From Methanobacteriota archaeon (GTDB taxonomy: Archaea > Thermoplasmatota > Poseidoniia > MGIII > CG-Epi1), in NCBI GenBank assembly GCA_029977605.1, contig JAPOKN010000004.1, positions 1 to 46,068 on the forward strand: a DNA stretch of 46,068 nucleotides, written 5' to 3'. The notes beneath the pieces were generated by a model, which did no database searches, was not told the DNA's origin, and saw only the letters and a program-made list of their open reading frames with translations. This document shows positions 22,766-45,950 of this stretch, piece by piece. How positions within the stretch are numbered: position 1 is the first letter of the stretch; each line of letters opens with the position of its first letter. The position numbers and the translations under genes were made by a program.

Positions 22766-23557
22766 ATGATTAATTTAAAAAAAGTATTTAGGCCATTAAC
22801 TTTGATTTCTTACGCAGATATGGCAACTTTACTAAGTGCTACTTTGGGTTTTTTAGCAATAACATACATGATTGATGGCAACGAGAAAAGTTACATTGTA
22901 GCTATGTTAATATTGCCATTTTGTGCGATTATTGACGGAATGGATGGTGCATTGGCTAGAAAATTTGGTACTAAACATCATTATGGAAAATACCTTGATT
23001 CAATTTCAGATTCAATATGTTTTGGAATCGCTCCGTCCATTTTGGTTTATTCCTTGTATTATAATTTAGATAAAGGCCCAGCAATAGATATTTTTGATGA
23101 TAACTTTGAGGTAAACTTAAGGTATAATATAGATAATATAATTGCAATTTCTTCAGCCTTATTAATCGCAATTTTAAGTATAATCAGATTAGCTAATTTT
23201 ACTATAGGTGATCAGGGTAGTAACGAATATTTTTCAGGTCTACCTTCCCCTGGGTTAACTATGTTTATAGTTGTAATTTCAATAAAGTATTCACAGATTA
23301 ATGATTATAATAATATACTAATTCCCTTATCAATTGGTTTGGTTTCACTACTAACTGCATCAACTATACCCTATGCTAAAGCTAGAAAACAATTTAAGTT
23401 TCCTATACTTTTTGGATTAATTGTACTGATAATAACAATAGTTCTTAGATATTTAGAACAAGCGTTTTGGCTCACAATATGGCCTTTAGCCTTACTTTTG
23501 TACTTAGTCTATTTTTTGCTTTTGCCGTTACTAATTTTAAACAGATATTTTGATTAG
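22766..23557 (+). CDS. pssA: Archaetidylserine synthase (CDP-archaeol:serine phosphotransferase)
   Basis: This CDP-alcohol phosphotransferase makes archaetidylserine, the substrate of the decarboxylase encoded just upstream. The motif IDGMDGALARKFGTKHHYG followed by KYLDSISDSICFGIAPS fits D-G-x2-A-R-x8-G-x3-D-x3-D with the PssA-typical SDxxxFGxAP ending. About seven membrane helices are visible in 263 residues. The gap to the fusion gene is 3 nt, so they form an operon. The 3' end overlaps the convergent 2200-residue surface protein gene by 4 nt. Confidence 0.92.
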   Translation: MINLKKVFRPLTLISYADMATLLSATLGFLAITYMIDGNEKSYIVAMLILPFCAIIDGMDGALARKFGTKHHYGKYLDSISDSICFGIAPSILVYSLYYNLDKGPAIDIFDDNFEVNLRYNIDNIIAISSALLIAILSIIRLANFTIGDQGSNEYFSGLPSPGLTMFIVVISIKYSQINDYNNILIPLSIGLVSLLTASTIPYAKARKQFKFPILFGLIVLIITIVLRYLEQAFWLTIWPLALLLYLVYFLLLPLLILNRYFD

Positions 23558-26500
23558 TGTTTTCTTCTGTAAACAATTAGTGCTAGGAGCCCTACAACAG
23601 ATAAGAATGAAGGTCCAGGAAGTAAAGAGTCCTCGCCTTCAGATGCAGTTTCTTCAGATATAATATCTCCTTCGACTGTAACTGTTAGAGTAACTTGATC
23701 TAATATCTCGAAGACATACCCTCCACTTGAAGATTCACTTGCAGATAAAATATTCAGTGTGTATGTATAAGTTCCAGGCAAAACTTCCCTTGCAATAACT
23801 GCTAAAGCCCCCCAATCTAGCGTTTCACCGGCCTGAACTTTTAATGGATATAATTTAGTATCGGATGGAGAAATAGCTAATCTCCATTCTTTACTATTTT
23901 CATCAAAATAGAGATCAGTATCTTTAGTTCCATCTGGCATAATCAATTCAAGCGCCACATCTACATCCACAGTTCCTTTATTATCAATAATGAAGCCAGT
24001 AGATGCAGTTTGTATTTTAGAAGCTTCAATAGTGATTTCAAAATTTGCTGAATCTAGACATAGATTACTCAAATCAGCGAAGCAAAGAGAAACATCTTGA
24101 ATTTCTTCAATCGGAGTTTGTACGACTATGTTTGATATAGATTTTGCTAATTCATTACCATTATCATCAAAAATTAATATTTCTAATCGATATGTTGCAT
24201 CAGAAGTTCCTAATGGAACATTAATGGTTGCGCTTACAACTTTAGCTTCATCAACATCTAAATCAAATGTTGCAGGTTCTAACATAACCCAACTTCCAGC
24301 TTGACTTTCAGCAACTACTTCTATGGCCTGTTTTCCATTTCCGTCACTTAAAATATTGAATACGATGGTATCAGATTCACCGGGTGCGATTGTTCTTAAG
24401 CCAGATCCTTCTCTTCTTAGAGTTACACCGGTTTCTAATTCTTCTACTGAAACTCTGATTGTTTTATCATCTTTTGCAGTTTCGTCACCTCTTGATGTGG
24501 CTTCAACTTCAATATACACATTTCCATCATCTTGGTCATCAGGAATTGAAATTATTCCATTGACAGTAGCTTCACCATCTGCTCCAATAGTAATTCCGTT
24601 TTCTTCAAATTGGACCCATTCATTTTCATCACCTAAAACTTCAAGATCAAATGTATCGGTTTCATCTCCGTTATTGTATATTGTTACACTAAATTCTACA
24701 TCCTGTCCAGCTACAGATTCAGTGTTTGTTGGACTTACAGCTATTTCGACTTCATAGTTTGTAGGATTATCTGTCACATCTATAGTTAAATCTAAAGTTT
24801 CAGTAACGTCTCCGGCAGTCAGAATAATAGTTAGATCATACAAGTCATATTCAGCATCATCTGGTATTGTTATTTGTAGTTCTATATCTTTACTTTCATT
24901 ACTTTTCATTTCCATTTGATTTGTCATAGATCCCCAATCTTCAGCAGATCCAACCATATCAAGATAGAAGGTATCAGTTCCAGAAGCTCCGTTTTTGATA
25001 ACAATATTAAATTCTAATTTTGCACCAGGTTCACCTTCTTTATCTTGATTAAAAGTAGATATCTCAGGTAGATGAACCATTTCAACATCTAAATCAATTT
25101 CTTTATCATCATTTCTATGATTCTCGTCCTCTTTTGTAGTCTCTACAATAATTATGTATTCACCGGGATTATTACTTTCCCATTCCCATTCTAATGTTTC
25201 TTCTTCACCAGATTCTAATGGTCCTGTTATCTGTTGATTGCTAGTCCAGACTTCGTTCTCTTCAGAATCCAGAATAGTTGCTTTAACATCAATAGCGGCC
25301 TGAGTATCAGATCCATAATTTTTTATTATACTTGAAAACGAAATAGTTGAATTTTCTTTTGCGTCGCTCTCCAATTTGAGTACTTTAACTCCGACATCAT
25401 CTGCAGCTGCAGAGGCCCGTAACCAGTCGAGAGCCCTTCCTACCATGTCCTCACGATCGTTTGAAGTGTTAACCTTACCAAATGTAAAAGGAGAAACAAT
25501 TAATCTGTAATCACCATCATAATGTAAAGACATATTGAAAACCTGTGCAGCATCATCCCAGTTTTCCATTCCATCTTCCATATCGTCAGATAGATGACTT
25601 GTAGTTCCTCCGTTAGAAGTTAATTCAACATCATCAAAATACCAACCCTCATAGGCATCAATAACCCCATCTGCTCCAAATCTCCATTTTAATTTTACAT
25701 CTTCGCCTGAGAAATTTGTTAGATCAAATGTAGCTTGTACCCACCCTCCAGATTGTCCGTAGTAACCAGGTTCTCCATCTAAACCGCTAACTGACTGAGC
25801 AGGATATCCTCCATTAGGCTGTATAACTTCCCACGTTTCTCCTCCATCAGTTGTAATTTGTACGTTTCCTCCATCATAAGCATAGCTTTCACTCTCAGTA
25901 TCATAGTAGTGTTGGAATGATAGCTGGGGGCTGTTTCCAAGTGTGAATTCATCTGAAGTATAAACAGAGTAATCCCATCCATTACCATACTCTCCATCGC
26001 CTTTAGATTCATCCCCTATCCACATTGAATGAGTAGGGCTATTTGCTTTTCGATTTGGATCGCTAACAGTATCTACAATATGCCACCAATTACTTCTATC
26101 AGTATAAAATGCACCAATGGCTTCATCGTTAGGCCTTATCCAATCAGCATAGTCAGAGAAATATATGCTTGTATCTCCCATATTATATTCAGCGTCGCCA
26201 AATATCTCATCTCCGTCTACTCCAATTAGCGGATCGGGCGTTCCAACATTGTTTCTAATGTAATCAATTTTAAAATAATCATATTCAAAATCGCCGGCTT
26301 CTCTTGGCCCGTCACTTTCGTTTAATGCAGTTAAAAATTGTTGTCCCATAATCCAAAGGCTTCCGCCTTGATCCAAATATTCACTAATACATTCTTGCCA
26401 GTTAGTAGTATTTCTTTGATTATGATCGCCTTGAGTCCATATAACAACATCATAGTTACTCATCAAATCTAAAGTAGGATATGGCCCTAATTCACCGAAT

Positions 26501-29500
26501 GATCCCAGTTCACTGTCATAAGGCATGGTGTAAACATCGTAGCCTCTGCTTTCACCATCAGTAAAGTATTCCTGTAAAGCGAACTTTAGTCTATTATCTA
26601 TCTTATCTACATCGTAGTAGTTGTTATATCCATTATTTTTACCGAAGTTTGCATCAACTAATAGAACTTTATCTCCACCTTCTTGTGAATAATAGAATGG
26701 AGTTGCGGAGATGTCACTACTGTCTTCAGTTTCAGGATCATCTCTACTTGTTACAGTTACTGTAAAGGAATGTTCATTTCCAGTAGGTTCCAATGTAGGA
26801 GCAATTACAACTACAGTAAAGTTTTGACTTGAGCCTGAACTTAGATAAATAGAGCTTACATGAGAAATAATTTCCCAATCATCCTCTTGTTCAGAATCTA
26901 AACTTATGTCGTAATATCCACTATTTTCTCCAGTATTTGTGGCAGTAAAGTTGAATGCTACAGATTCACCAGATAGTACATCTTTTGCTTGTTCTTGTAC
27001 CGCTAAAGCAACATTATAGCCACTTTCGGCTATATCTATATTTTCTTCTTTTGGATTATTACCAGCTCTTTCATCTCCAGTTAATAATGTTTCGACTCTT
27101 ATTGTGTAGGTACCTTCAGGTCCACCTTCCCAGGTCCACTCTAATGTAGAATTATCTTTTGATTCAAGTGAATCAATAGTTTGAGTTTCGTTGTAAACTT
27201 CAGTACCATCGTCTCTCGTTACTGTGCCTCTTATATCAAAATCATCTTGATCATTTGTTCCAAAATTGTAGATTTCAGAAGTAAAAGTTACAGCTCTTCC
27301 TGGTTTAGCTGTGCTAGGCGAATCTAATTCTTTAGTTCCAACATCGTTAGGTATCGGTGGAAGACTATAAACTGCAAAATTATCAACATACAATCCTTCA
27401 AGTTGAGTGAAGGTATTAGATTCAAATCTAAGTCTGAATGAAACATCGTCCTCATACTCACTTACATCACTTTCAAAATAGAGCCACCCATTCTCGTCAG
27501 CTCCATCGTATTCGCTAGAGTAATCTCCATCATCGCCGGGTAAAGTTTCTAAAAGTTCCCACTCGCCGGATTGATTTATTTCTAAGTTGACAAAATCATT
27601 TGGACCGTCAATTGCAAACCATACCATTGCAGAAACATATTTTTCAGCACCATCTCCTATGTCAAACGTAGGTGATTCTAAAGAATCATTTAGTGAAGCA
27701 CTGTAAGTTTCAGTACTTGGATTTCCTAAATACCATGAATAATCTCCAGAATAGGATTTGTTGCTATAGTAATTCCACTCACTTTCAACAATGTCGGCCA
27801 TCCAATCTCCGTCGCCATCTTCAAAATCATCTTCAAAATGAGTTTCAGTTCCACTGTTAACTTCAATATTATCAATATACCATCCTTCATAGGCTTCTAC
27901 ACTTGCATCTGTTCCGAACCTAAATTTGAATCTTACATCTTGATTAGTATAGTTTGCAAGACTAAAGGATGCAGTTTCCCAATCAGCAGTATCTCCTTCC
28001 CCAGAAGTTCCAGTGTATCCTGGTTCATTATCCAATCCAACTACGGCATCATCAGGGTATCCGCCGTCAGGATTGATGACTTCCCAAGTTTCTCCGTCGT
28101 CAGTTGTAATTTGAACATTACCTCCATCCCAACTAAATTCAGTACTATACCAAATATCAACAGACATCTGTGGGTTAGTTTGACCAAGTGAAATCTCTTC
28201 ACTTGTATAAACAGAAAAATCCCAATTATTGTCATATTCACCATCTCCCTTAGATTCATCTCCAACCCACATCGCATGAGTTGGACTAGATGCTTCTCTG
28301 TTACTATCTTCGTCAGTATCGATTAAATGCCATGGATTGCTTAATGATTTGTAATTAGTCCACCCATTAACTCCGCTTTCCATGTCATCACTAAATTCAA
28401 CATCGACACTTCTCATCATTGAATCAATTATATCATTTTCTGGAACTTCATCATCATCATCTATGACTTTAGCTTCAAACCAAAAAGTTCCGTAATCATC
28501 AGTTTCCCATTCCCATGTAAGTGTTAAATCTTCACCTGGAGCTAAATCTTCAACATCTTTATTTCCTAAATTTTCAACAACGTTTCCTGCTCCATCATAG
28601 ATTTTACCACTAATTTCAGAATTCATAGTAACATCTCCACTATTTGTAACAATTACACTCATTTCTCTTTCTTCATCTTTCTCAGCGATCATTGGAGTAA
28701 CACGAGCATCTTTTACTTCTAAATCATACGTAACATAGGTATTAACTTTGATAATCTTTTCATTATTTTCCTCTTTTTCATCATTTGAAATTGTGGCCTT
28801 ACTTTTTATCTGATAAACATAGTCTTCATCATCTGGAGTATCCCATTCAAATTCAACAAAAGCACCAGTGCCTGAATCTAGTGAAATAGTTTCAGATTCA
28901 GTAAACGTGTACGAGCTATTCAAACATGTAATTTCTAACGAAACTTGAATACTATCTTGGTCTTCAGTACCTCTGTTTCTTACTGTAACATTTACAATGT
29001 TTTCAACGTTAGGTTCAACAGTCTCTTCATCTTTAGGCGTATTAAATCTGCTTAAACTTACATCATTTTCTAGTTGTTCAACAAGGTATTCAACAACGTT
29101 TTCCATAAATTCGTCCCTATCATCACTACTTGTAATAGAACTAAAATCAATAGTCATGAATACCAATTTGAATTCATCTTCAGTTCTTATGGTTGAAATA
29201 TTATAGTCTCCATTTGAACTTAAGACTTTTTCAAATCCGCTTCTAGGATTAATATCGTCTGCAAAATCTGAGCTTATCGCATCAGCATCGTATTCTATAC
29301 CATCAGAAATAGGATCATCGTCTTCACCATATACTACAGCAGGTGTTGCCCTGTCATTATCGGCATAACTAACGCCAAGATAATCGTGTTCAAAGTCACC
29401 AGCGCTACGATCACCGTCTGATGTATCAAAATCATACAAAATATCCATTCCTATAACCCACATAGCTCCTCCATCCTCTAGATATTCTGCGACATTTGAT

Positions 29501-30156
29501 TTGTCATTATCAGTAAAAGTTACATCAGTGTCTCCACTTTGGTAGTCAGTTCCACATACCCAAATAATCATTTGATACTCTGATAAAACATCTATTCCAG
29601 GAGCATCAGCACTACTATTGACTCTTACTATATCATATGCAATAGGATTAGTAAGGTTGTCAAGGGCATTGGCATAGTATGAGTCAGTTTCAGTCCTCGA
29701 ACCACCATTATTTCCGCTGTTATCATCGTCTAAAAGCAATATGGGCGGATATGAAACGGCAATATCTTCGGTTTCCTCATTATTATCCTCGTCAGATTCA
29801 GTAATTTGTTCTTCTTCATCAACAATTACTTTAATTTTGTGAGATCCTCCCACTGCAGTCCATTCAGTTTCAGCGTCTGCAGTATTTCCACCGGGAATAG
29901 TTATTGTTTCTTTAGCAATAAAGTTTCCATCATAGTAAAAGCTAACATTTGTAGTTACAGTAATTAGTCCACTAGTCCCCCCATCATTTGCGACCTCTGC
30001 GGTAATAGTTATCTCATCACCTCCTGTAGGTGAATCATCACTAAAACTTATCTCATTTATTGATAAGTCAGGATCATTTTCATCAGCTAATGTGTTCATA
30101 GCTGAAAGTGGTAGCATCAGCATGGCTAGCAAGAAAGCAGTTATTTTACGAGACAT
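23554..30156 (-). CDS. Giant surface protein with CARDB, GATase-like and MAM-like modules and PGPS-type C-terminal sorting signal
   Basis: This is a 2200-residue exported protein. Residues 1-25 are a signal peptide (AFLLAMLMLPLSAMNTLA). CARDB/APHP-type beta-sandwich repeats occur near 29-133, 371-600, 940-1150 and 1587-2165. Two GATase/flavodoxin-like domains start near residues 136 (ILLLDDDNSG) and 1160 (VLLVDANFG). MAM-like modules lie near 584-774 and 775-935. A third (about 1351-1537) sits inside the second GATase-like domain and appears permuted. The C-terminus, LLPGPSFLSVVGLLALIVYR then RKH, has the three parts of an archaeosortase signal: short motif, hydrophobic helix, basic tail. It is convergent with the archaeosortase fusion and pssA. 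It is probably processed there and lipid-anchored. The acidic composition suits a surface protein; its ligand is unknown. Confidence 0.85.
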   Translation of the reverse strand: MSRKITAFLLAMLMLPLSAMNTLADENDPDLSINEISFSDDSPTGGDEITITAEVANDGGTSGLITVTTNVSFYYDGNFIAKETITIPGGNTADAETEWTAVGGSHKIKVIVDEEEQITESDEDNNEETEDIAVSYPPILLLDDDNSGNNGGSRTETDSYYANALDNLTNPIAYDIVRVNSSADAPGIDVLSEYQMIIWVCGTDYQSGDTDVTFTDNDKSNVAEYLEDGGAMWVIGMDILYDFDTSDGDRSAGDFEHDYLGVSYADNDRATPAVVYGEDDDPISDGIEYDADAISSDFADDINPRSGFEKVLSSNGDYNISTIRTEDEFKLVFMTIDFSSITSSDDRDEFMENVVEYLVEQLENDVSLSRFNTPKDEETVEPNVENIVNVTVRNRGTEDQDSIQVSLEITCLNSSYTFTESETISLDSGTGAFVEFEWDTPDDEDYVYQIKSKATISNDEKEENNEKIIKVNTYVTYDLEVKDARVTPMIAEKDEEREMSVIVTNSGDVTMNSEISGKIYDGAGNVVENLGNKDVEDLAPGEDLTLTWEWETDDYGTFWFEAKVIDDDDEVPENDIIDSMMRSVDVEFSDDMESGVNGWTNYKSLSNPWHLIDTDEDSNREASSPTHAMWVGDESKGDGEYDNNWDFSVYTSEEISLGQTNPQMSVDIWYSTEFSWDGGNVQITTDDGETWEVINPDGGYPDDAVVGLDNEPGYTGTSGEGDTADWETASFSLANYTNQDVRFKFRFGTDASVEAYEGWYIDNIEVNSGTETHFEDDFEDGDGDWMADIVESEWNYYSNKSYSGDYSWYLGNPSTETYSASLNDSLESPTFDIGDGAEKYVSAMVWFAIDGPNDFVNLEINQSGEWELLETLPGDDGDYSSEYDGADENGWLYFESDVSEYEDDVSFRLRFESNTFTQLEGLYVDNFAVYSLPPIPNDVGTKELDSPSTAKPGRAVTFTSEIYNFGTNDQDDFDIRGTVTRDDGTEVYNETQTIDSLESKDNSTLEWTWEGGPEGTYTIRVETLLTGDERAGNNPKEENIDIAESGYNVALAVQEQAKDVLSGESVAFNFTATNTGENSGYYDISLDSEQEDDWEIISHVSSIYLSSGSSQNFTVVVIAPTLEPTGNEHSFTVTVTSRDDPETEDSSDISATPFYYSQEGGDKVLLVDANFGKNNGYNNYYDVDKIDNRLKFALQEYFTDGESRGYDVYTMPYDSELGSFGELGPYPTLDLMSNYDVVIWTQGDHNQRNTTNWQECISEYLDQGGSLWIMGQQFLTALNESDGPREAGDFEYDYFKIDYIRNNVGTPDPLIGVDGDEIFGDAEYNMGDTSIYFSDYADWIRPNDEAIGAFYTDRSNWWHIVDTVSDPNRKANSPTHSMWIGDESKGDGEYGNGWDYSVYTSDEFTLGNSPQLSFQHYYDTESESYAYDGGNVQITTDGGETWEVIQPNGGYPAQSVSGLDGEPGYYGQSGGWVQATFDLTNFSGEDVKLKWRFGADGVIDAYEGWYFDDVELTSNGGTTSHLSDDMEDGMENWDDAAQVFNMSLHYDGDYRLIVSPFTFGKVNTSNDREDMVGRALDWLRASAAADDVGVKVLKLESDAKENSTISFSSIIKNYGSDTQAAIDVKATILDSEENEVWTSNQQITGPLESGEEETLEWEWESNNPGEYIIIVETTKEDENHRNDDKEIDLDVEMVHLPEISTFNQDKEGEPGAKLEFNIVIKNGASGTDTFYLDMVGSAEDWGSMTNQMEMKSNESKDIELQITIPDDAEYDLYDLTIILTAGDVTETLDLTIDVTDNPTNYEVEIAVSPTNTESVAGQDVEFSVTIYNNGDETDTFDLEVLGDENEWVQFEENGITIGADGEATVNGIISIPDDQDDGNVYIEVEATSRGDETAKDDKTIRVSVEELETGVTLRREGSGLRTIAPGESDTIVFNILSDGNGKQAIEVVAESQAGSWVMLEPATFDLDVDEAKVVSATINVPLGTSDATYRLEILIFDDNGNELAKSISNIVVQTPIEEIQDVSLCFADLSNLCLDSANFEITIEASKIQTASTGFIIDNKGTVDVDVALELIMPDGTKDTDLYFDENSKEWRLAISPSDTKLYPLKVQAGETLDWGALAVIAREVLPGTYTYTLNILSASESSSGGYVFEILDQVTLTVTVEGDIISEETASEGEDSLLPGPSFLSVVGLLALIVYRRKH

Positions 30157-38183: not shown

Positions 38184-39119
38184 CTATTGATGTAAATCTT
38201 TTCTTGGGTCGTTATCAGTTCCCCAGTTCGTTACAAATTCTTTTGTTTTTTCGTATAACTCTTCAAATGAATCCCAAACATACAGTATTGGTTGATATTT
38301 CGTAACATCATATGCAAGAGTTTCCATTTCTTCAAAATTAGGTTTTCTATATTCAACCTCACCAGATGCACATGCATGTTCCATTTCACCAAAAGAAGAT
38401 AATAATCCAGGCCCTACTGATTTCACGTTTCCTTCTTCACGACAAGTTCCAAATTCAAGAACATACCAATAAACAGATCCAAGGCGATTGATTGCAGCTT
38501 CACTTTCAGTTCTCATATCAGCCTCTCCAAATAGAACATTAAGCTCAGCCCATTCAGGTACACCTAGCATTGCAGTGTGTCCAACAAGTTCGTGCACAAC
38601 ATCAGGTTCAGGCGTGTAAAATGGTCTTGACGAATGTCTAATATATTGTGTTGAAAGGAAAACTCGGTTTGCTAGAGCAGTGTGAAATGTTTTAGGATGA
38701 ACTAAGCCCCCAACAGGTTCTTGTCTGAAGCCAGTCATTTCTTCTAATGTCTCACTGACTTCTTGTAATTGTGGTATTCTATCGTTGGGTAATCCTAATT
38801 TTTTTGCATTTTCAAGATACTGTTTACATGCGTATTTTTCATGAACAGGAGTAATTCTTTCCATAATCGCAGCCCAAACCGCATCCTCATCTTCAGAGTA
38901 CGGAGCATGTGGAATCTTTTTTGTTCTTCTTTCGTCCATAGACATTTCATTCCATTCAAGTGCAATCTTAGCAATCTCATTTCTTCTTGATCTATAGCCT
39001 TCATCCTTGAATCCTGGATGGTCAGGGTCTAGTTCTACGAAAACGTTTCCACCAACTATTTTTACGGCAGAATTCGCTTCATCTGTTTCTTCACTTACTC
39101 CTTCAGATGGTCCGTGCAT
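38184..39119 (-). CDS. phhA: Phenylalanine 4-hydroxylase (pterin-dependent)
   Basis: PhhA hydroxylates phenylalanine to tyrosine using O2, non-haem iron and a reduced pterin. The iron triad is visible: H176 and H181 in DVVHELVGH and E222 in WYVLEFG. Other signatures are TGFRQEPVGGLVHPKTFHT, FLSTQYIRHSSRPFYTPEPD and LSSFGEMEH. At 311 residues it is close to the bacterial monomeric form and has no N-terminal ACT regulatory domain. phhB, for recycling the pterin, is in the same window. Pterin-dependent hydroxylases are rare in archaea, so transfer from bacteria is a reasonable inference. Confidence 0.95.
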   Translation of the reverse strand: MHGPSEGVSEETDEANSAVKIVGGNVFVELDPDHPGFKDEGYRSRRNEIAKIALEWNEMSMDERRTKKIPHAPYSEDEDAVWAAIMERITPVHEKYACKQYLENAKKLGLPNDRIPQLQEVSETLEEMTGFRQEPVGGLVHPKTFHTALANRVFLSTQYIRHSSRPFYTPEPDVVHELVGHTAMLGVPEWAELNVLFGEADMRTESEAAINRLGSVYWYVLEFGTCREEGNVKSVGPGLLSSFGEMEHACASGEVEYRKPNFEEMETLAYDVTKYQPILYVWDSFEELYEKTKEFVTNWGTDNDPRKDLHQ

Positions 39120-39231: not shown

Positions 39232-39726
39232 ATGAGTATGGAATCGGAAGACAGGTCATTGAAAATTATAATGTTCATTTCTTTCATTGGCCTAATCGAT
39301 GCGATATATTTGTCTTATTTACATCATTTGATTTCCCAAGGGGCTGGCTGTCCAACAGAAAATCTTCCAGGTTTAGATTGTGGCGTAGTTCTGGCAAGCG
39401 ATCAGGCAAAATTATTCGGTATTCCAGTCGCTTGGTTGGGAGTTGTTGGATTTTTGATGCTAATTGGATTGTCTTTAGATAGATATCTAAATATGGACTT
39501 AGAACGTACTTACTACAATAAAATTCTTTTACCAATCACTGGAGTTATTGGTGTTATTTTCGGTTCATATCTAACTTATGCAGAGGCATTCATAATTCAT
39601 GAATGGTGTCCTTTTTGCGTAGTCGCTTTTGTTTTGACAATCGCAGCAACTTTTTTCTGCATAACTGAATATGGTAGTGAAATAAAGGAGTTAATTAACA
39701 AAAATGGCATCGAAGAGGAAGCGTAA
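39232..39726 (+). CDS. Vitamin K epoxide reductase (VKOR) family protein
   Basis: Prokaryotic VKOR homologues reoxidise disulfide-making thioredoxin-like proteins and pass electrons to quinone, like DsbB. The external pair is in GCPTENLPGLDCGVV and the active-site pair in EWCPFCVV, across four to five membrane helices. The 164 residues from ATG 39232 (MSMESEDRSLK) give the normal length; the TATA box at 39204-39211 supports this start. The gene overlaps the downstream thioredoxin-like gene by 23 nt, which fits a VKOR-thioredoxin pair for oxidative folding outside the membrane. Confidence 0.92.
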   Translation: MSMESEDRSLKIIMFISFIGLIDAIYLSYLHHLISQGAGCPTENLPGLDCGVVLASDQAKLFGIPVAWLGVVGFLMLIGLSLDRYLNMDLERTYYNKILLPITGVIGVIFGSYLTYAEAFIIHEWCPFCVVAFVLTIAATFFCITEYGSEIKELINKNGIEEEA

Positions 39727-40306
39727 ACTAGAAAAAAAATCATCTAAAGATTTTAAAGATAAAATGCAAGCTAGGAGAGCTTCAGCTAATGATGCATTAT
39801 GGACCTACGGCCTTCCTTTAGCAGTTATTTTAGTGGTAGGATTAGGAGTATATTTTGCTTTTTTCTATGAGATGGGCGACCCTCGTGCAGAAGAATGGGA
39901 GCTTGAAGATCCTCAGTCAGGCGAAGTTTATGCATCAGAAGATTATTACAATAACCGCTTAACAATTGTTGAATTTTTTAACACTAAATGCGGAGCTTGC
40001 CAGACTCAAGCGCCAATTTTGAACGATGTCCATGCAAATTATTCCTCACAAGTAGATATGTTTGCAATAGGTGGCTACAAGTTAGGGAGTGGGCAAGATT
40101 CAGCTTCAAGTATTGCAAACTTCAAAATAGAGTATAATATGCAATTTCCTCATTTATATGACCCCTCTGGAGATTTGATGCGAGATTATGGTTTTTCATC
40201 TTATCCTTCTTTAGCTTTTATCAAAAATGGAGAAATTGTTTACAGCCACTCAGGCATATTATCAGAAAGTCGATTGGCTGCAGAAATTGAAAAACACCTC
40301 GAGTGA
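39704..40306 (+). CDS. Membrane-anchored thioredoxin-like oxidoreductase (TlpA/DsbE-like)
   Basis: This 200-residue protein has a basic N-terminus, one membrane helix (LPLAVILVVGLGVYFAFFY) and an external thioredoxin fold. The redox motif is CGAC (C96, C99) in FFNTKCGACQTQAP, and the cis-proline region is FSSYPSLAF. It overlaps the VKOR gene and would be its redox partner. It is strikingly similar to the thioredoxin domain inserted in the SCO protein encoded next: both share DYYNN, a CxxC site followed by Q-x-P, HAN-x-S-x-QVD and IGGY-x-LG. A duplication within this locus is likely. Confidence 0.9.
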   Translation: MASKRKRKLEKKSSKDFKDKMQARRASANDALWTYGLPLAVILVVGLGVYFAFFYEMGDPRAEEWELEDPQSGEVYASEDYYNNRLTIVEFFNTKCGACQTQAPILNDVHANYSSQVDMFAIGGYKLGSGQDSASSIANFKIEYNMQFPHLYDPSGDLMRDYGFSSYPSLAFIKNGEIVYSHSGILSESRLAAEIEKHLE

Positions 40307-40340: not shown

Positions 40341-41816
40341 ATGAATCGAAGTATTCCAACAATTTTTATTGTTTTTATGTTCTTAGCATCAACAGGCTGT
40401 TTAGATGCACTAACTAATTCTGGAGATTCAGGTAAATTTTGGGGTGAGGACTGTGAAGACGTTTCTGAGGAAATTTGTCCATCAGGTGAAGCACCAGATT
40501 TTTCATTAGTTGATCAAAACGGAGATACAGTTAATTTGACATTATACGAGGATAAAATAGTGGTAGTTTCGTTTGTTTACACTTACTGTCCCGATATATG
40601 CCCAGCATTAACTTATCAGCTAAGAAAATTATCGGAAGAATTGGGCGACGATTATGGGGAATCTGTAGAATTTATCACAATAACTGTAGACCCTGAACGA
40701 GACACTCCTGAAAGATTAGCCTCTTTTGCAGCTAATAATAATGCAGACTGGAGATTTTTAACATCAGTTTCTAACGACTCGTTTGGAGACATGGTTTCTA
40801 TTTGGGCAGATTACAGAGTTTACGTTGACATTGATGAAGAAGCTTGCTCAGGCAATGGACATTACATGGAAGGATACGATGGATGCCATTGTAATCCAGG
40901 ATTTATGCAAGATTCAAATGATACATATTTCGGTAAAGACGTTTGTATTGAAGATCCTAATTACAGTAATCTAAATGTCTCATTTGAGCAAGGAAGTATA
41001 GAATACGATATTATTTTAGCATTGGAAGAATTTAATGAAGCTGCAGGAATAATAAGTGAAGATTTTGCGCTTCAAGCTATAGATGCTTACGTATCTCAAA
41101 CTTTCCCTTCAAGTTGGACAATGCCTGGCGTAGATAATACAACATACAAATCTAGAGATTATTACAATAACAACCTAACATTAATTGAGTTTTTTCATAC
41201 AGACTGTTCAGTTTGTAATGCACAAATTCCTGAACTTAAAGAATTCCATGCAAATTTTTCGAATCAAGTTGACGTAATATCAATTGGCGGATATTCACTA
41301 GGTGGCAATGTAGATGATATTTCTACCATTGAAGACTTCGCATCTGAGCACAATGTTTCTTGGCCTTATGTTCTTGATGAAGAGGGTACAATGATGACTA
41401 AGTTCGGACTAGAAAGTAGATATCCTAGTTGGGTACTATTAGAAGGCAATTTGTCATCGGGAATTCCACAAGTTGTTGATACTTTTGTAGGCAGAGAATC
41501 ATACGATGACTTAGTTTATAGAATAGATAATCGTTCATCTCCAATTAATGTCTCTGAACAACTTGTCGATATTATAGATTATTTTGGACACTGGAGTCAA
41601 GACCATATATCTGATACAGAAATGATATCTATCATCTCAGATTTACTAGGATATGAGTTTGAAAATGAAGTAGTTGAAGAGGTAGCTAATTATGGAGTTA
41701 GTCATTCTAATAAGTTATATCTGATAGATAAGGAAGGAAATGTTAGAGTAGTTTGGAGAGGAATAGAATGGACTTATGCCTCAGTTTACCATGATATTCA
41801 ACTTCTTATGTTGTAA
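40341..41816 (+). CDS. SCO1/SenC-type lipoprotein with a thioredoxin domain inserted in the SCO fold
   Basis: SCO proteins deliver copper to the CuA site of cytochrome oxidase. A lipobox STGC follows the signal peptide. The SCO domain starts at APDFSLVDQNGDTVNL and has the copper motif YCPDICP (C83, C87), ending near DYRVYVDID (about residue 170). A cysteine-rich EGF-like patch (GCHCNPGF) follows. Residues 265-395 then form a thioredoxin-like domain with CSVC (C289, C292) that closely resembles the protein encoded just upstream. The missing end of the SCO fold, with the copper histidine, reappears at SHSNKLYLIDKEGNVRVVWR (H455). The convergent cox operon encodes the CuA subunit, the expected client. 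At 491 residues it is about twice the usual SCO length. Confidence 0.88.
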   Translation: MNRSIPTIFIVFMFLASTGCLDALTNSGDSGKFWGEDCEDVSEEICPSGEAPDFSLVDQNGDTVNLTLYEDKIVVVSFVYTYCPDICPALTYQLRKLSEELGDDYGESVEFITITVDPERDTPERLASFAANNNADWRFLTSVSNDSFGDMVSIWADYRVYVDIDEEACSGNGHYMEGYDGCHCNPGFMQDSNDTYFGKDVCIEDPNYSNLNVSFEQGSIEYDIILALEEFNEAAGIISEDFALQAIDAYVSQTFPSSWTMPGVDNTTYKSRDYYNNNLTLIEFFHTDCSVCNAQIPELKEFHANFSNQVDVISIGGYSLGGNVDDISTIEDFASEHNVSWPYVLDEEGTMMTKFGLESRYPSWVLLEGNLSSGIPQVVDTFVGRESYDDLVYRIDNRSSPINVSEQLVDIIDYFGHWSQDHISDTEMISIISDLLGYEFENEVVEEVANYGVSHSNKLYLIDKEGNVRVVWRGIEWTYASVYHDIQLLML

Positions 41817-41856: not shown

Positions 41857-42303
41857 ATGACACTATTAGGATTCGGTGACGACAATTTAGTATTTTTTGA
41901 CTTTGAATTTAGTTATGTTAGTATAATCGGCGCGAGTATTTCGGTTTTTCTTGGTATTGTGATGACACAATCTGGTTTTGACAAGATATTTAATTGGGAA
42001 GGCGAATTAGATTTCATTACAGGTAAGTTTGCTAACACTCCCCTAGCTAATTTTTCTACATTTGGTTTAATTCAAGTTACAATATTTGAAATATTATCAG
42101 GCCTTTTGTCATTATTTGGGTCGCTTATGGCCTTATTTTACAATGATTATTCCTATGCAATAATGGGTTTAATTTTAGCAGCAAGTTCTTTAGCTATTCT
42201 AATGTTAGGTCAAAGAATCTCAAAAGACTATGAAGGAGCAGCAGTGTTAGTTCCTTACTATATTTTAACAATGTTTGGTCTATTTATCTACACTCAGTTT
42301 TAG
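41857..42303 (+). CDS. DoxX-like membrane protein
   Basis: This 148-residue protein has four hydrophobic helices. The pattern GIVMTQSGFDKIFNW followed by helices and a GQRISKDYEGAA segment is similar to the DoxX/quinol-oxidase-associated family, but the match is loose. The ATG at 41857 is preferred over 41839, because CCATATAC at 41829-41836 lies about 25 nt upstream. It ends 4 nt into the convergent coxD gene. DoxX proteins are linked to thiosulfate:quinone oxidation or membrane redox chemistry; here its neighbours are disulfide and oxidase genes. Confidence 0.6.
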   Translation: MTLLGFGDDNLVFFDFEFSYVSIIGASISVFLGIVMTQSGFDKIFNWEGELDFITGKFANTPLANFSTFGLIQVTIFEILSGLLSLFGSLMALFYNDYSYAIMGLILAASSLAILMLGQRISKDYEGAAVLVPYYILTMFGLFIYTQF

Positions 42304-42683
42304 AAACCACAAATAGTAGCCAAATCATCTACAGCACCAGGAGTTGTTAGCCCTACAGCTAAGAATAATACGGCTAAGAAAAACAGAGGTACAGATGCAG
42401 TCTGATAAACTAATGGAGGATCCCATGTCATGTGCATAAAGAATGAGCAAATATACCAGCATTTGATAAGTGCTATACCGAATAGAATTAGCATATTCAA
42501 TGCAAACGAATCAAATTCTTGAACAATTGCCAATACTTCTAGAATTGTCCAAAAAACTAGCCACGCAAATATTTTGATGAATCCATCTACAGGATCATCA
42601 GTATGCCCAAAAGTCACCCAGTCTGGGAAAGAATGGTCATGGTGTTCATCGTGGCTGTTTTCAGTTTTTGTTTCTTCACTCAT
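42300..42683 (-). CDS. coxD: Cytochrome c oxidase subunit IV-like protein
   Basis: This small membrane subunit stabilises haem-copper oxidases. The 127-residue protein has a charged, His-rich N-terminus (NSHDEHHDHSFPDW) and three membrane helices, with CWYICSFFMHMTWDPPL as the family-typical middle segment. It follows coxC by 8 nt with GAGGTAA as a likely ribosome site, so it is the last gene of the cox operon. Its 3' end overlaps the DoxX-like gene. Confidence 0.88.
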   Translation of the reverse strand: MSEETKTENSHDEHHDHSFPDWVTFGHTDDPVDGFIKIFAWLVFWTILEVLAIVQEFDSFALNMLILFGIALIKCWYICSFFMHMTWDPPLVYQTASVPLFFLAVLFLAVGLTTPGAVDDLATICGF

Positions 42684-42691
42684 TTTTTACC

Positions 42692-43636
42692 TCAATATAA
42701 ATAGAAAAATGGAAATACAAATACCCAAACCAAATCAACGTAGTGCCAGTATAGTCCAAATAGCTCAATAGTTTCATGGTTTTCTTCATTATATCCATCT
42801 TTGTTTGATTTTGCAATCAAGTATCCTAATGCAATTAGCCCAATGAAGACGTGAGCACCATGCATGCCTGTAGTAATGTAAAAAGTACTGCCTTCAATAC
42901 TAGTATCAAGCCAAAAACCATTTGCGTATTTTGGAGCAATACAATGGTCTGCGATGCTTTGTCCTGCTAAAACGTCACAACCGTTATGAGATTCGTCCCA
43001 GAAATTATAATGTCTCATTTCATTCCATTCCCACAACTTTAGAGCTAAGAACATAGCTCCTAGGACAAAGGTAACAGCCAAATATCTAGTAACTGCTTTT
43101 GGGTTATTGTTCTTAGCAGCATACAATGCTAACACAACAGTCAAACTGCTTAAAAGAAGTGCAAATGTATTAATCACTCCAAATATTAAGTGACTTCTGA
43201 TAACATCAGCAGCAGGTACCCAGCAATCTTCAAAGTATAATCCACAATCAATGTCTGGAGAATAGTCTGGCATTGACGCTCTGTATCTCAAATATGCACT
43301 TAATAATGTACTGAAAACCATGACTTCAGTTAATAGGAAAATCCACATTCCAAATTTTCGAGTTGAAATTGTATCCCAGAATTTATGATAAGTTTCTATG
43401 TGTTCATCTTCTTCACCTTCTAGATCCCAATAATCTTGAACCCACATGAAGAATGCTGTAAAAATTCCAATAAGTCCTATGATGAATACAAACCAGTAAC
43501 CCGTATCTCCTGTTTTATCTTCACCGCCAGCAGTGGCCATGACTAACCCAATAAACATAATTGCAGTTGCAACACAGAATAAGAAAGGCGCAGGAGTTTC
43601 TATGTGAGCATGATGCTCATCATGTTCATCACTCAT
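42692..43636 (-). CDS. coxC: Cytochrome c oxidase subunit III
   Basis: Subunit III is a membrane protein of aa3-type oxidases that sustains proton uptake. Seven helices are visible. Typical segments are FGMWIFLLTEVMVFSTLLSA, GVINTFALLLSSLTVVLA, FYITTGMHGAHVFIGLIALG and the C-terminal YWHYVDLVWVFVFPFFYLY. The ATG at 43636 (MSDEHDEHHAH) is chosen because GGAGG lies just upstream on the minus strand; it overlaps the coxA stop by 8 nt. An ATG at 43660 is also in frame. A loop between helices carries four cysteines not usual in the family. Confidence 0.96.
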   Translation of the reverse strand: MSDEHDEHHAHIETPAPFLFCVATAIMFIGLVMATAGGEDKTGDTGYWFVFIIGLIGIFTAFFMWVQDYWDLEGEEDEHIETYHKFWDTISTRKFGMWIFLLTEVMVFSTLLSAYLRYRASMPDYSPDIDCGLYFEDCWVPAADVIRSHLIFGVINTFALLLSSLTVVLALYAAKNNNPKAVTRYLAVTFVLGAMFLALKLWEWNEMRHYNFWDESHNGCDVLAGQSIADHCIAPKYANGFWLDTSIEGSTFYITTGMHGAHVFIGLIALGYLIAKSNKDGYNEENHETIELFGLYWHYVDLVWVFVFPFFYLY

Positions 43637-45950
43637 TTTTTTTAGCCTCCTCTTCGGCATCTAGCAATGTAGGAATTTCGATGAAACTATTTTCTGGCGG
43701 TGGAGATGATGTAGCCCATTCTAATGACCATCCATTCCACGGATTGTCTCCAGCTTCTTTACCATTCCTGTAAGAGTAAAATACGTTATAAACAAAAATT
43801 AGTTGTACTAAGCCGAATAGTATTGCGAAAATACTAATGAATTGGTTTAATTCTGTTAACGATGCGTCATAGGTAGCATATCTTCTTGGCATTCCAGAAA
43901 TTCCTACATTGTGCATCGGATAAAATGCAGCGTTAAAAGTGATGAATGTTGTTGCAAAATGTATAATTCCTAATCTTTCATCCATCATCTTTCCAGTCAT
44001 TTTAGGATACCAATAGTAAACTCCAGCTATGAAAGAAAACATAGTTCCCCCAATCAAGACATAATGGAAGTGTGCTACAACGAAATAAGTGTCGTGGAAA
44101 GCAATATCTAATGGAATAGAAGCCAAAATAATGCCAGTAATTCCTCCAATTGTGAAAGTAATAATAGTACCTAATGAAAACATCATTGGTGTGTTTAGAA
44201 CTACAGATCCACCAGTCATAGTAGCAAGCCAATTGAATATTTTAATTCCAGTAGGTACTGCAACTAACATTGTTGTTAGCATTACAATGAAACGGAATAA
44301 TGGATCAGCACCTGTAGTAAACATGTGGTGACCGTATACTACGAACGAAATTATTCCTATTGTAGCCATTGCATATACCATAGAAGTGTATCCAAAAATT
44401 GGTCTTCTTGAAAATGTAGATATTATTTCAGATAAAACGCCAAAGGCAGGTAAAATAACAATGTAAACTTCCGGATGTCCAAAGTACCAGAATAAGTGCT
44501 GCCACAATATAGGGTCAGAATCTGGACCTGAAAAGTATAAACTTCCAAAAGTACGATCTGCCATCAGTAAAATTAAAGCAACAGTGAATACAGGAATAGA
44601 TAGCAGAAGTAAGAATACAGTTACAAGGATAGACCAAGCGAATAGGGGCATTTTCATTAGAGAAACTCCTGGAGCACGCATTCTCAGCATAGTTACTAGG
44701 AAATTAACTGCTGTAAGTGTTGAAGAAGCTCCCAACATTAGTTGCCCAGCAACCCAGAAATCCGTTCCAGGCCTTGTAGCGGATGCGCCAGAAGAATAAG
44801 GTGCATATCCAGTCCAGCCAACGTCTCCAGCACCTCCAGTGAAATATCCCATGTACAATACAATACCGCCAGTAGGAAGGAGCCAATAACCAAATGAATT
44901 TAGTCTTGGGAATGCTAAATCTCTTGCACCAATTTGAAGAGGAATTAAGTAATTTGCAAAGCCAAAAATGATAGGCATGGCAGCCATGAAAATCATGGTT
45001 GTTCCATGCATTGTAAAGGTAGAGTTATACTCTTGGTATGTTAAGAAATCACCATCCACTCGAGGTTCATATAATTGCCATCTAATCAATAAACCTAAAA
45101 TTCCCCCAATGAAGAACCAGGCAAATCCAGTGACAATGTAAAGCGTTCCAATATATTTGTGATCAGTAGTCGTGAGCCATGGATAAATCCATTTCCAGTA
45201 GCTCTTCATTACCTCTTCGAATGATTCGTCTTGATCGACCATTCTATATCCAACTACTACAACAGCTAAAGTAATGAAAACAATTCCAAATCCGTATACT
45301 ACTTTCTTAGGTCCAGATAATTCGCCATGAGCTCCACCATCTGTAATTTGAGCATTTTTACCAGCAAGAAGGAAGGTTCCTGAATTCCAATAGTCTCCAC
45401 TATTTCCCATACCTCCACTATCTTCGTAAGCATTTCCGTTAACAGAATTTCCGTAAACCATGAATTCTGCAACTACAGAATCGCTATCTGGAGCTGTCCA
45501 ATTGAAACTCCATTCTCTTAAGTTATTTCCATCTCCACTCTGCCCCTCTTCTCCCCCAGTGTGAGTTAGGTAACTACTATCTTCAGGTTTCCATACGTTA
45601 TCATCAATAGGAGTTAAAGTTCCAGTGGAAACTTTCAGCATAAAACCTCCCATATTGGGTCCATTTTCCATTGGTGCAATATCATTTGGTCCGCCGGAAA
45701 TGTTGAGAATTAATGTGTAAGTTTCACCTGCTGTAAAATTAGAAGGTATTGTTAAATTTAGAATAACAGCCGAATTTGGATTATTCATATTTCCGTCGCC
45801 TATATTGTGACAGCTACAGCCATTTGCTTCGACTAATGTGCTTATACTTGGATCAATTCCTCCTGGATTTGTTTCTCCAGTTGGAACTGCAGTTACAGCA
45901 AAAATGATGCTTAATAGTATTCCTAGCCCTATTGCTTTACTTCTAAGCAT
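43629..45950 (-). CDS. coxA: Cytochrome c oxidase subunit I with an N-terminal secreted CxCH domain
   Basis: Subunit I holds haem a, haem a3 and CuB and reduces O2. The core (about residues 255-740) has FTMHGTTMIF, GHPEVYIVILPAFG with the CuB histidine, the cross-linked tyrosine and the type A1 glutamate, YGHHMFTTG, and VAHFHYVLIGG. Ahead of it, residues 1-20 form a signal peptide. Residues 40-195 form an external beta domain with NGCSCHN (C45, C47, H48), like the choice-of-anchor V/reeler-type domains. A helix (VVYGFGIVFITLAVVVVGY) then links to the core. The motif is CxCH, not the CxxCH of c-type haem. The gene overlaps coxB by 8 nt and coxC by 8 nt. The 773-residue length reflects the fusion. 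Confidence 0.95.
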   Translation of the reverse strand: MLRSKAIGLGILLSIIFAVTAVPTGETNPGGIDPSISTLVEANGCSCHNIGDGNMNNPNSAVILNLTIPSNFTAGETYTLILNISGGPNDIAPMENGPNMGGFMLKVSTGTLTPIDDNVWKPEDSSYLTHTGGEEGQSGDGNNLREWSFNWTAPDSDSVVAEFMVYGNSVNGNAYEDSGGMGNSGDYWNSGTFLLAGKNAQITDGGAHGELSGPKKVVYGFGIVFITLAVVVVGYRMVDQDESFEEVMKSYWKWIYPWLTTTDHKYIGTLYIVTGFAWFFIGGILGLLIRWQLYEPRVDGDFLTYQEYNSTFTMHGTTMIFMAAMPIIFGFANYLIPLQIGARDLAFPRLNSFGYWLLPTGGIVLYMGYFTGGAGDVGWTGYAPYSSGASATRPGTDFWVAGQLMLGASSTLTAVNFLVTMLRMRAPGVSLMKMPLFAWSILVTVFLLLLSIPVFTVALILLMADRTFGSLYFSGPDSDPILWQHLFWYFGHPEVYIVILPAFGVLSEIISTFSRRPIFGYTSMVYAMATIGIISFVVYGHHMFTTGADPLFRFIVMLTTMLVAVPTGIKIFNWLATMTGGSVVLNTPMMFSLGTIITFTIGGITGIILASIPLDIAFHDTYFVVAHFHYVLIGGTMFSFIAGVYYWYPKMTGKMMDERLGIIHFATTFITFNAAFYPMHNVGISGMPRRYATYDASLTELNQFISIFAILFGLVQLIFVYNVFYSYRNGKEAGDNPWNGWSLEWATSSPPPENSFIEIPTLLDAEEEAKKNE

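Follow-up and report, generated by a model that had tools for sequence, protein, structure and literature searches.

A thioredoxin domain nested in the Sco loop of a predicted SCO lipoprotein from a Marine Group III archaeon

The window, a stretch of 46,068 nucleotides, comes from a Marine Group III archaeon and encodes a 491-aa predicted lipoprotein in which a complete thioredoxin domain lies inside a split SCO domain. Its open reading frame starts with ATG at 40341 and runs to 41816 on the forward strand; the nearest named contig is CG-Epi1 MIZA01000002.1, with 96% identity in the SCO-thioredoxin protein. The nesting had been proposed in the original prediction, whose coordinates for the reading frame proved exact, and it is confirmed here by Pfam, by matches to the PDB, and by a profile of SCO C-termini. 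No described SCO with a nested thioredoxin was found in the open-access literature, represented mostly by titles and abstracts, and the novelty of this architecture is its absence from the open-access text searched. The features of the protein are as follows.

40341..41816, +: complete gene (491 aa) for a predicted SCO lipoprotein with an EGF-like patch and a thioredoxin domain nested in it (ORF; Pfam; full-length orthologues 52-96% identical)
40341..40400, +: signal sequence with lipobox-like STGC at its end (sequence; G19 and C20 invariant in 9 orthologues)
40452..40478, +: extra cysteine pair C38/C46, N-terminal to the SCO domain (invariant in the genus; absent from sister-genus SCOs L022, L023, L024, and L034)
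40494..40829, +: SCO domain part 1, residues 52-163 (PF02630 positions 2-109 of 134; PDB ScoI; AF2 b-a-b-a pattern)
40587..40601, +: C83-PDI-C87, predicted SCO copper/redox cysteines (cysteines invariant; aligned with ScoI CxxxC)
40842..40958, +: EGF-like four-cysteine patch, residues 168-206, with C169, C182, C184, and C202 (distant orthologues 69-87% identical)
40959..41114, +: predicted helical hairpin 1, residues 207-258 (AF2 helices 220-233 and 240-251, low confidence)
41115..41531, +: nested thioredoxin domain, residues 259-397 (Pfam; AF2 pLDDT about 90; ResA/StoA/DsbE-like fold, TM-target up to 0.84)
41205..41216, +: thioredoxin active site C289-SV-C292 (cysteines invariant; dipeptide variable)
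41532..41660, +: predicted helical hairpin 2, residues 398-440 (AF2 helices 404-419 and 425-435, low confidence)
41691..41813, +: SCO domain part 2, residues 451-491, with the last strands, helix, and predicted copper-ligand histidine (C-terminal SCO HMM; 45-52% identity to sister-genus SCO C-termini)
41703..41705, +: H455 in the Sco loop, predicted to be the copper-ligand histidine (invariant; aligned with the histidine of ScoI YTMDHT)

The intact protein matches the Pfam SCO1-SenC model with 106.1 bits (gathering threshold 22.8) over residues 52-164, which cover profile positions 2-109 of 134. Deleting residues 165-440 in silico extends the match to positions 2-134 of 134 of PF02630, with the total score about unchanged, and raises the best PDB match, Bradyrhizobium ScoI, from 53.7 to 64.8 bits in one alignment that runs through the histidine. 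Mapped on ScoI, the insertion point separates RVYA from YTMDHT and so falls in the Sco loop, where the extra histidine is located (PMC6696091). A C-terminal SCO profile trained on six SCOs, all from outside the window's genus, gives 43.7 bits at residues 451-489, and the best of 1000 shuffles gives 3.6. The original prediction had the split right and its boundaries (45-170 plus 440-491) approximately so; they are refined here to 52-163 plus 451-491, and the same boundary is seen in all nine orthologues aligned. The motifs that it named (CxxxC, at C83-C87; CSVC, at C289-C292; and the histidine H455) are also correct, and these ligand and active-site residues are invariant in the nine orthologues, as are all 11 cysteines of the protein and the thioredoxin YPS motif.

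The protein shares with the SCO1/SenC chaperones (BsSco/YpmQ, BjScoI, and human SCO1) the CxxxC...H motif, the Pfam SCO1-SenC family, a thioredoxin-like fold, and cytochrome oxidase neighbours, and its copper motif, CxxxC with a distal histidine, is complete and aligned with that of ScoI. It departs from the usual short-loop, uninterrupted architecture in that its Sco loop holds about 285 residues, including the thioredoxin, whereas this loop is 9-24 residues long in canonical SCOs of the phylum and similarly short in solved ScoI. The long loop is an architectural variation that leaves the defining SCO motif unaffected.

Structure prediction with AF2 agrees with this division. In the second model, the N-terminal part of the SCO domain follows the b-a-b-a pattern up to residue 156 and lacks the final strand-strand-helix, which is supplied by residues 459-462, 468-472, and 479-490; hence no complete SCO fold precedes residue 163, and the thioredoxin lobe (260-396) forms a complete unit without the C-terminal segment. 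Confidence is about 90 (pLDDT) in the thioredoxin lobe, mostly 58-84 over residues 51-140 of the SCO N-terminal part, and about 41-64 in the C-terminal part, with a pTM of 0.41. The pLDDT was 44.9 in the first run, with nine orthologues, and 60.6 in the second, with rows of thioredoxin neighbours and part of one distant SCO. The separate thioredoxin lobe expected from the original prediction was thus obtained, but the C-terminal part was not confidently placed in the SCO half, and because AF2 confidence is weak there, homology is a better guide to its packing than the model. A Foldseek search with the model returned ResA/StoA/DsbE-like thioredoxins first and also matched BsSco and BjScoI, as two lobes would predict.

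The inserted domain is a complete thioredoxin fold with a CxxC site, as judged from the AF2 model and the invariant C289 and C292, and Pfam AhpC-TSA, Redoxin, and thioredoxin models match at about residues 254-368. It resembles ResA/StoA/DsbE-type thioredoxins in fold (TM-target about 0.8), in the CxxC, and in the conserved proline of the YPS motif (P362, invariant in orthologues). However, it stays far below the cut-off of the curated ResA model (46.9 vs 170 bits) and has no membrane anchor of its own. The dipeptide between the cysteines differs among orthologues: CSVC in the window, elsewhere CPTC, CGHC, CPHC, CSHC, CVHC, and others, with a CxHC site in about half of them. Sites of the CxHC type are typical of oxidases and isomerases.

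Judged by sequence similarity, the nested thioredoxin and the membrane-anchored thioredoxin encoded immediately upstream are paralogues. In trees, the nested thioredoxins form one clade and the neighbouring thioredoxins another, with free thioredoxins of a sister genus within the same small group; a duplication before the split from the sister genus and one after it both fit the trees (AU p 0.21 and 0.33).

The remainder of the insert consists of the four-cysteine patch and two hairpins. The patch, which the original prediction had called EGF-like, stands as a conserved four-cysteine motif, but not at the level of Pfam EGF families, since it has four cysteines rather than the six-cysteine pattern and scores 17.5 bits with EGF_Teneurin against a cut-off of 24.3. 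Hairpin 2 carries the invariant residues H417-W418...H422...M428 (residues 417-428; 41589-41624), and H417, H422, and M428 might form an additional metal site. The cysteine pair C38/C46 could be a relay or a structural disulfide acquired along with the thioredoxin.

In the window's genus, the gene order is VKOR-Trx-SCO(Trx)-DoxX, facing the cytochrome oxidase genes, and this run is conserved. The neighbours in the window are as follows.

39232..39726, +: VKOR-family disulfide oxidase, same gene run, two genes upstream of the SCO (PF07884, 84 bits)
39704..40306, +: membrane-anchored thioredoxin with a CGAC site, paralogous to the nested domain (46% identity, E 2e-30)
41857..42303, +: DoxX/MauE-like membrane protein, directly downstream (DoxX 22.4 bits, just under the cut-off of 23.6; order kept in L004-L008)
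42300..42683, -: cytochrome oxidase subunit IV (COX4_pro), convergent (Pfam)
42692..43660, -: cytochrome oxidase subunit III (Pfam)
43629..45950, -: cytochrome oxidase subunit I with an extra N-terminal domain (profile matches)

Two related loci show other arrangements. In another genus of the same family (genome G015, locus L111), the order PAH-SCO-DoxX-COX4-COX3-COX1-COX2 includes a canonical SCO with a 16-residue loop and represents an empty site; in sister genus g2 (L026), the locus holds PAH, VKOR, Trx, DoxX, and COX4/COX3 without the SCO, which lies elsewhere (L107). PAH denotes a biopterin-dependent aromatic amino acid hydroxylase, which in the window (38184-39119, -) likewise adjoins the oxidase assembly genes, as it does in these two other genera of the family. 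The extra N-terminal domain of COX1 is led by a signal peptide, matches the choice-of-anchor V model (74.9 bits vs 42), and contains a GCxCH motif; the family's other two genera (L108 and L111) and L104 have a comparable GCxCH-bearing N-terminal part. Further away, 23554-30156 (-) encodes a probable large surface protein of 2200 aa that contains CARDB repeats and an InhA-like MAM domain.

The copper ligands of SCO proteins are CxxxC and the histidine of the loop, and the redox upkeep of SCO and CuA cysteines varies between organisms: a separate thioredoxin, TlpA, reduces ScoI and COX II in Bradyrhizobium, and in Thermus the CuA cysteines are reduced by SCO itself and copper is brought by PCuAC (PMC6696091, PMC9145763). 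A COX2 with CuA ligands (CAEYCGESHSRM) was found in the window's genus, no PCuAC was found there, and the window's genome gave one strong SCO match; a TlpA-ScoI system in one chain is therefore the simplest reading. By analogy with TlpA and ScoI, we give about an even chance to the proposal that the protein is a lipoprotein CuA-assembly factor for the adjacent cytochrome oxidase whose thioredoxin pair exchanges with SCO and/or COX2 cysteines. The extracytoplasmic lipoprotein SCO would assist the CuA centre of the neighbouring oxidase. The C289/C292 pair would swap electrons with the SCO cysteines C83/C87, the CuA cysteines of COX2, or both, and would thereby keep the cysteines in the redox state needed for copper binding or transfer. 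The helical hairpins may position the thioredoxin lobe above the copper site, and the mobile Sco loop may serve as a hinge. The likeness to the Bradyrhizobium pair is that SCO and COX2 are the targets of an extracytoplasmic thioredoxin linked to the membrane, an equivalence that would extend to the window protein only by inference, and the difference is that TlpA and ScoI are two proteins, whereas here one polypeptide carries the thioredoxin inside the SCO fold. The idea in the original prediction of a reductase integrated in the chaperone is no more than plausible.

Net reduction of SCO and CuA appears likelier than the possible alternative that the domain works with the nearby VKOR as an isomerase or oxidase. 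Counting against reduction are the oxidative VKOR upstream, the CxHC sites of about half of the orthologues, and the lack of any CcdA/DsbD above the cut-off in 14 genomes. Several genomes do encode a fusion of 460 aa in which a thioredoxin is joined to a membrane part with a CcdA-like motif (FFSPCSFPMLPGY) and a weak DsbD_TM match (13.3 bits against a cut-off of 27.1). Proteins of this kind, about 450-480 aa long and composed of an anchored thioredoxin and a CcdA/DsbD-like membrane part barely registered by Pfam, are found at L088 (the 13.3-bit match), L089, L090, and L092, and they are candidates for the reductive electron importer of Marine Group III.

A less likely alternative is that the nested thioredoxin is not mainly a copper-site reductant but an oxidase or isomerase arm that works with VKOR and the membrane thioredoxin on disulfides of COX2, the EGF-like patch, or other secreted proteins. 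Prokaryotic VKORs draw electrons from thioredoxin-like proteins in oxidative folding (PMC4555120), and a VKOR and a paralogous thioredoxin are encoded immediately upstream. The CGHC, CPHC, CSHC, and CVHC sites of orthologues, together with the probable structural cysteines of the protein itself, fit such a role. However, SCO copper sites require reduced cysteines, and a tethered oxidase would be counterproductive unless tightly controlled; moreover, the window's own site is CSVC, and the free thioredoxin would be a simpler partner for VKOR.

A profile-based census of the Sco loop covered 62 distinct SCO proteins of the phylum, nearly all from the class Poseidoniia, and every insert sits at the same point. 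Besides the canonical class (9-24 residues), there are loops of 47-53 residues (TSP3-like or acidic/His-rich), of 156-191 residues (one Trp-rich module, usually with an EGF-like motif), and of 250-295 residues (two Trp-rich modules, usually with an EGF-like motif, or the EGF-like patch and thioredoxin). Judged from sequence, the Poseidoniia Sco loop thus carries at least three fillings besides thioredoxin. In a tree built from the SCO core alone, the thioredoxin-containing proteins group together (100/90), and closest to them are the g2 SCOs, which carry Trp-rich or acidic inserts (97/96); the loop type changes at least eight times on this tree. The shared insertion point, the loop classes, and these changes together mark the loop as a recurrent insertion site, and therefore the thioredoxin is one genus-specific version. 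The survey of fillings covered Thermoplasmatota and, outside it, PDB entries and plasmids.

The Poseidoniia SCOs L022, L033, L027, and their relatives share the SCO core and insertion point of the window protein but have Trp-rich module(s) or a TSP3-like stretch in place of the thioredoxin. Many also have the EGF-like motif, which there precedes the SCO C-terminus, whereas in the window protein it follows the SCO N-terminal part. The Trp-rich module (L027, L033, L022, L023, and others) had no Pfam match; by eye, it has a DUF4430-like look.

Because other lineages put non-redox modules in the same loop, the insert may have a docking role, and a further alternative, which we regard as rather improbable, is that it is mainly a docking or spacing module in a loop that accepts many domains, with thiol chemistry secondary. 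In relatives, the loop is either empty or filled with a Trp-rich module and EGF-like motif or with TSP3-like or acidic/His-rich stretches, and the EGF-like patch is conserved better than the thioredoxin. However, both active-site cysteines and P362 are invariant, which fits a working redox domain. Our tentative synthesis, held at a little under even confidence, is that the Poseidoniia Sco loop is a reusable landing site into which, in Marine Group III, a copy of the type of thioredoxin encoded next door was inserted, yielding a single-chain TlpA-ScoI with its thiol reagent hinged on the copper-gating loop.

Far less probable is a simple tandem of SCO and thioredoxin with the C-terminal tail belonging to the latter; AF2 places the tail without high confidence, but this reading is contradicted by the SCO-type character of the tail, which scores 43.7 bits with the profile of SCO C-termini, fills out the SCO alignments in Pfam and the PDB, is shared with sister-genus SCOs that lack thioredoxin (e.g., L023), and is missing from the end of the upstream thioredoxin. 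Although the source genomes are metagenome-assembled, a join of two genes by assembly or frameshift error has a negligible probability and is contradicted by the same full-length, stop-free architecture, found at 52-96% identity in 11 of the 14 separately assembled genus genomes.

The three genomes of the genus without the fused gene are incomplete, and in one of them (G003) the cox contig (L109) stops just before the site. A twelfth copy, 92% identical to that of the window, occurs in a genome of another family that has its own SCOs (G059), on a contig (L002, G059:C16) that is probably mis-binned. The viral contigs scanned gave one bacterial SCO and nothing else, and the plasmid collection gave no record covering 80% of the query, the best place listed covering 36%.

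Overall, the natural fusion of a thioredoxin to the copper-ligand loop suggests that thiol exchange and copper loading are physically coupled, and it offers a single-chain system for measuring this coupling. In addition, the loop holds other domains in other lineages, and thus large insertions appear to be tolerated by a copper-gating element that has been supposed critical.
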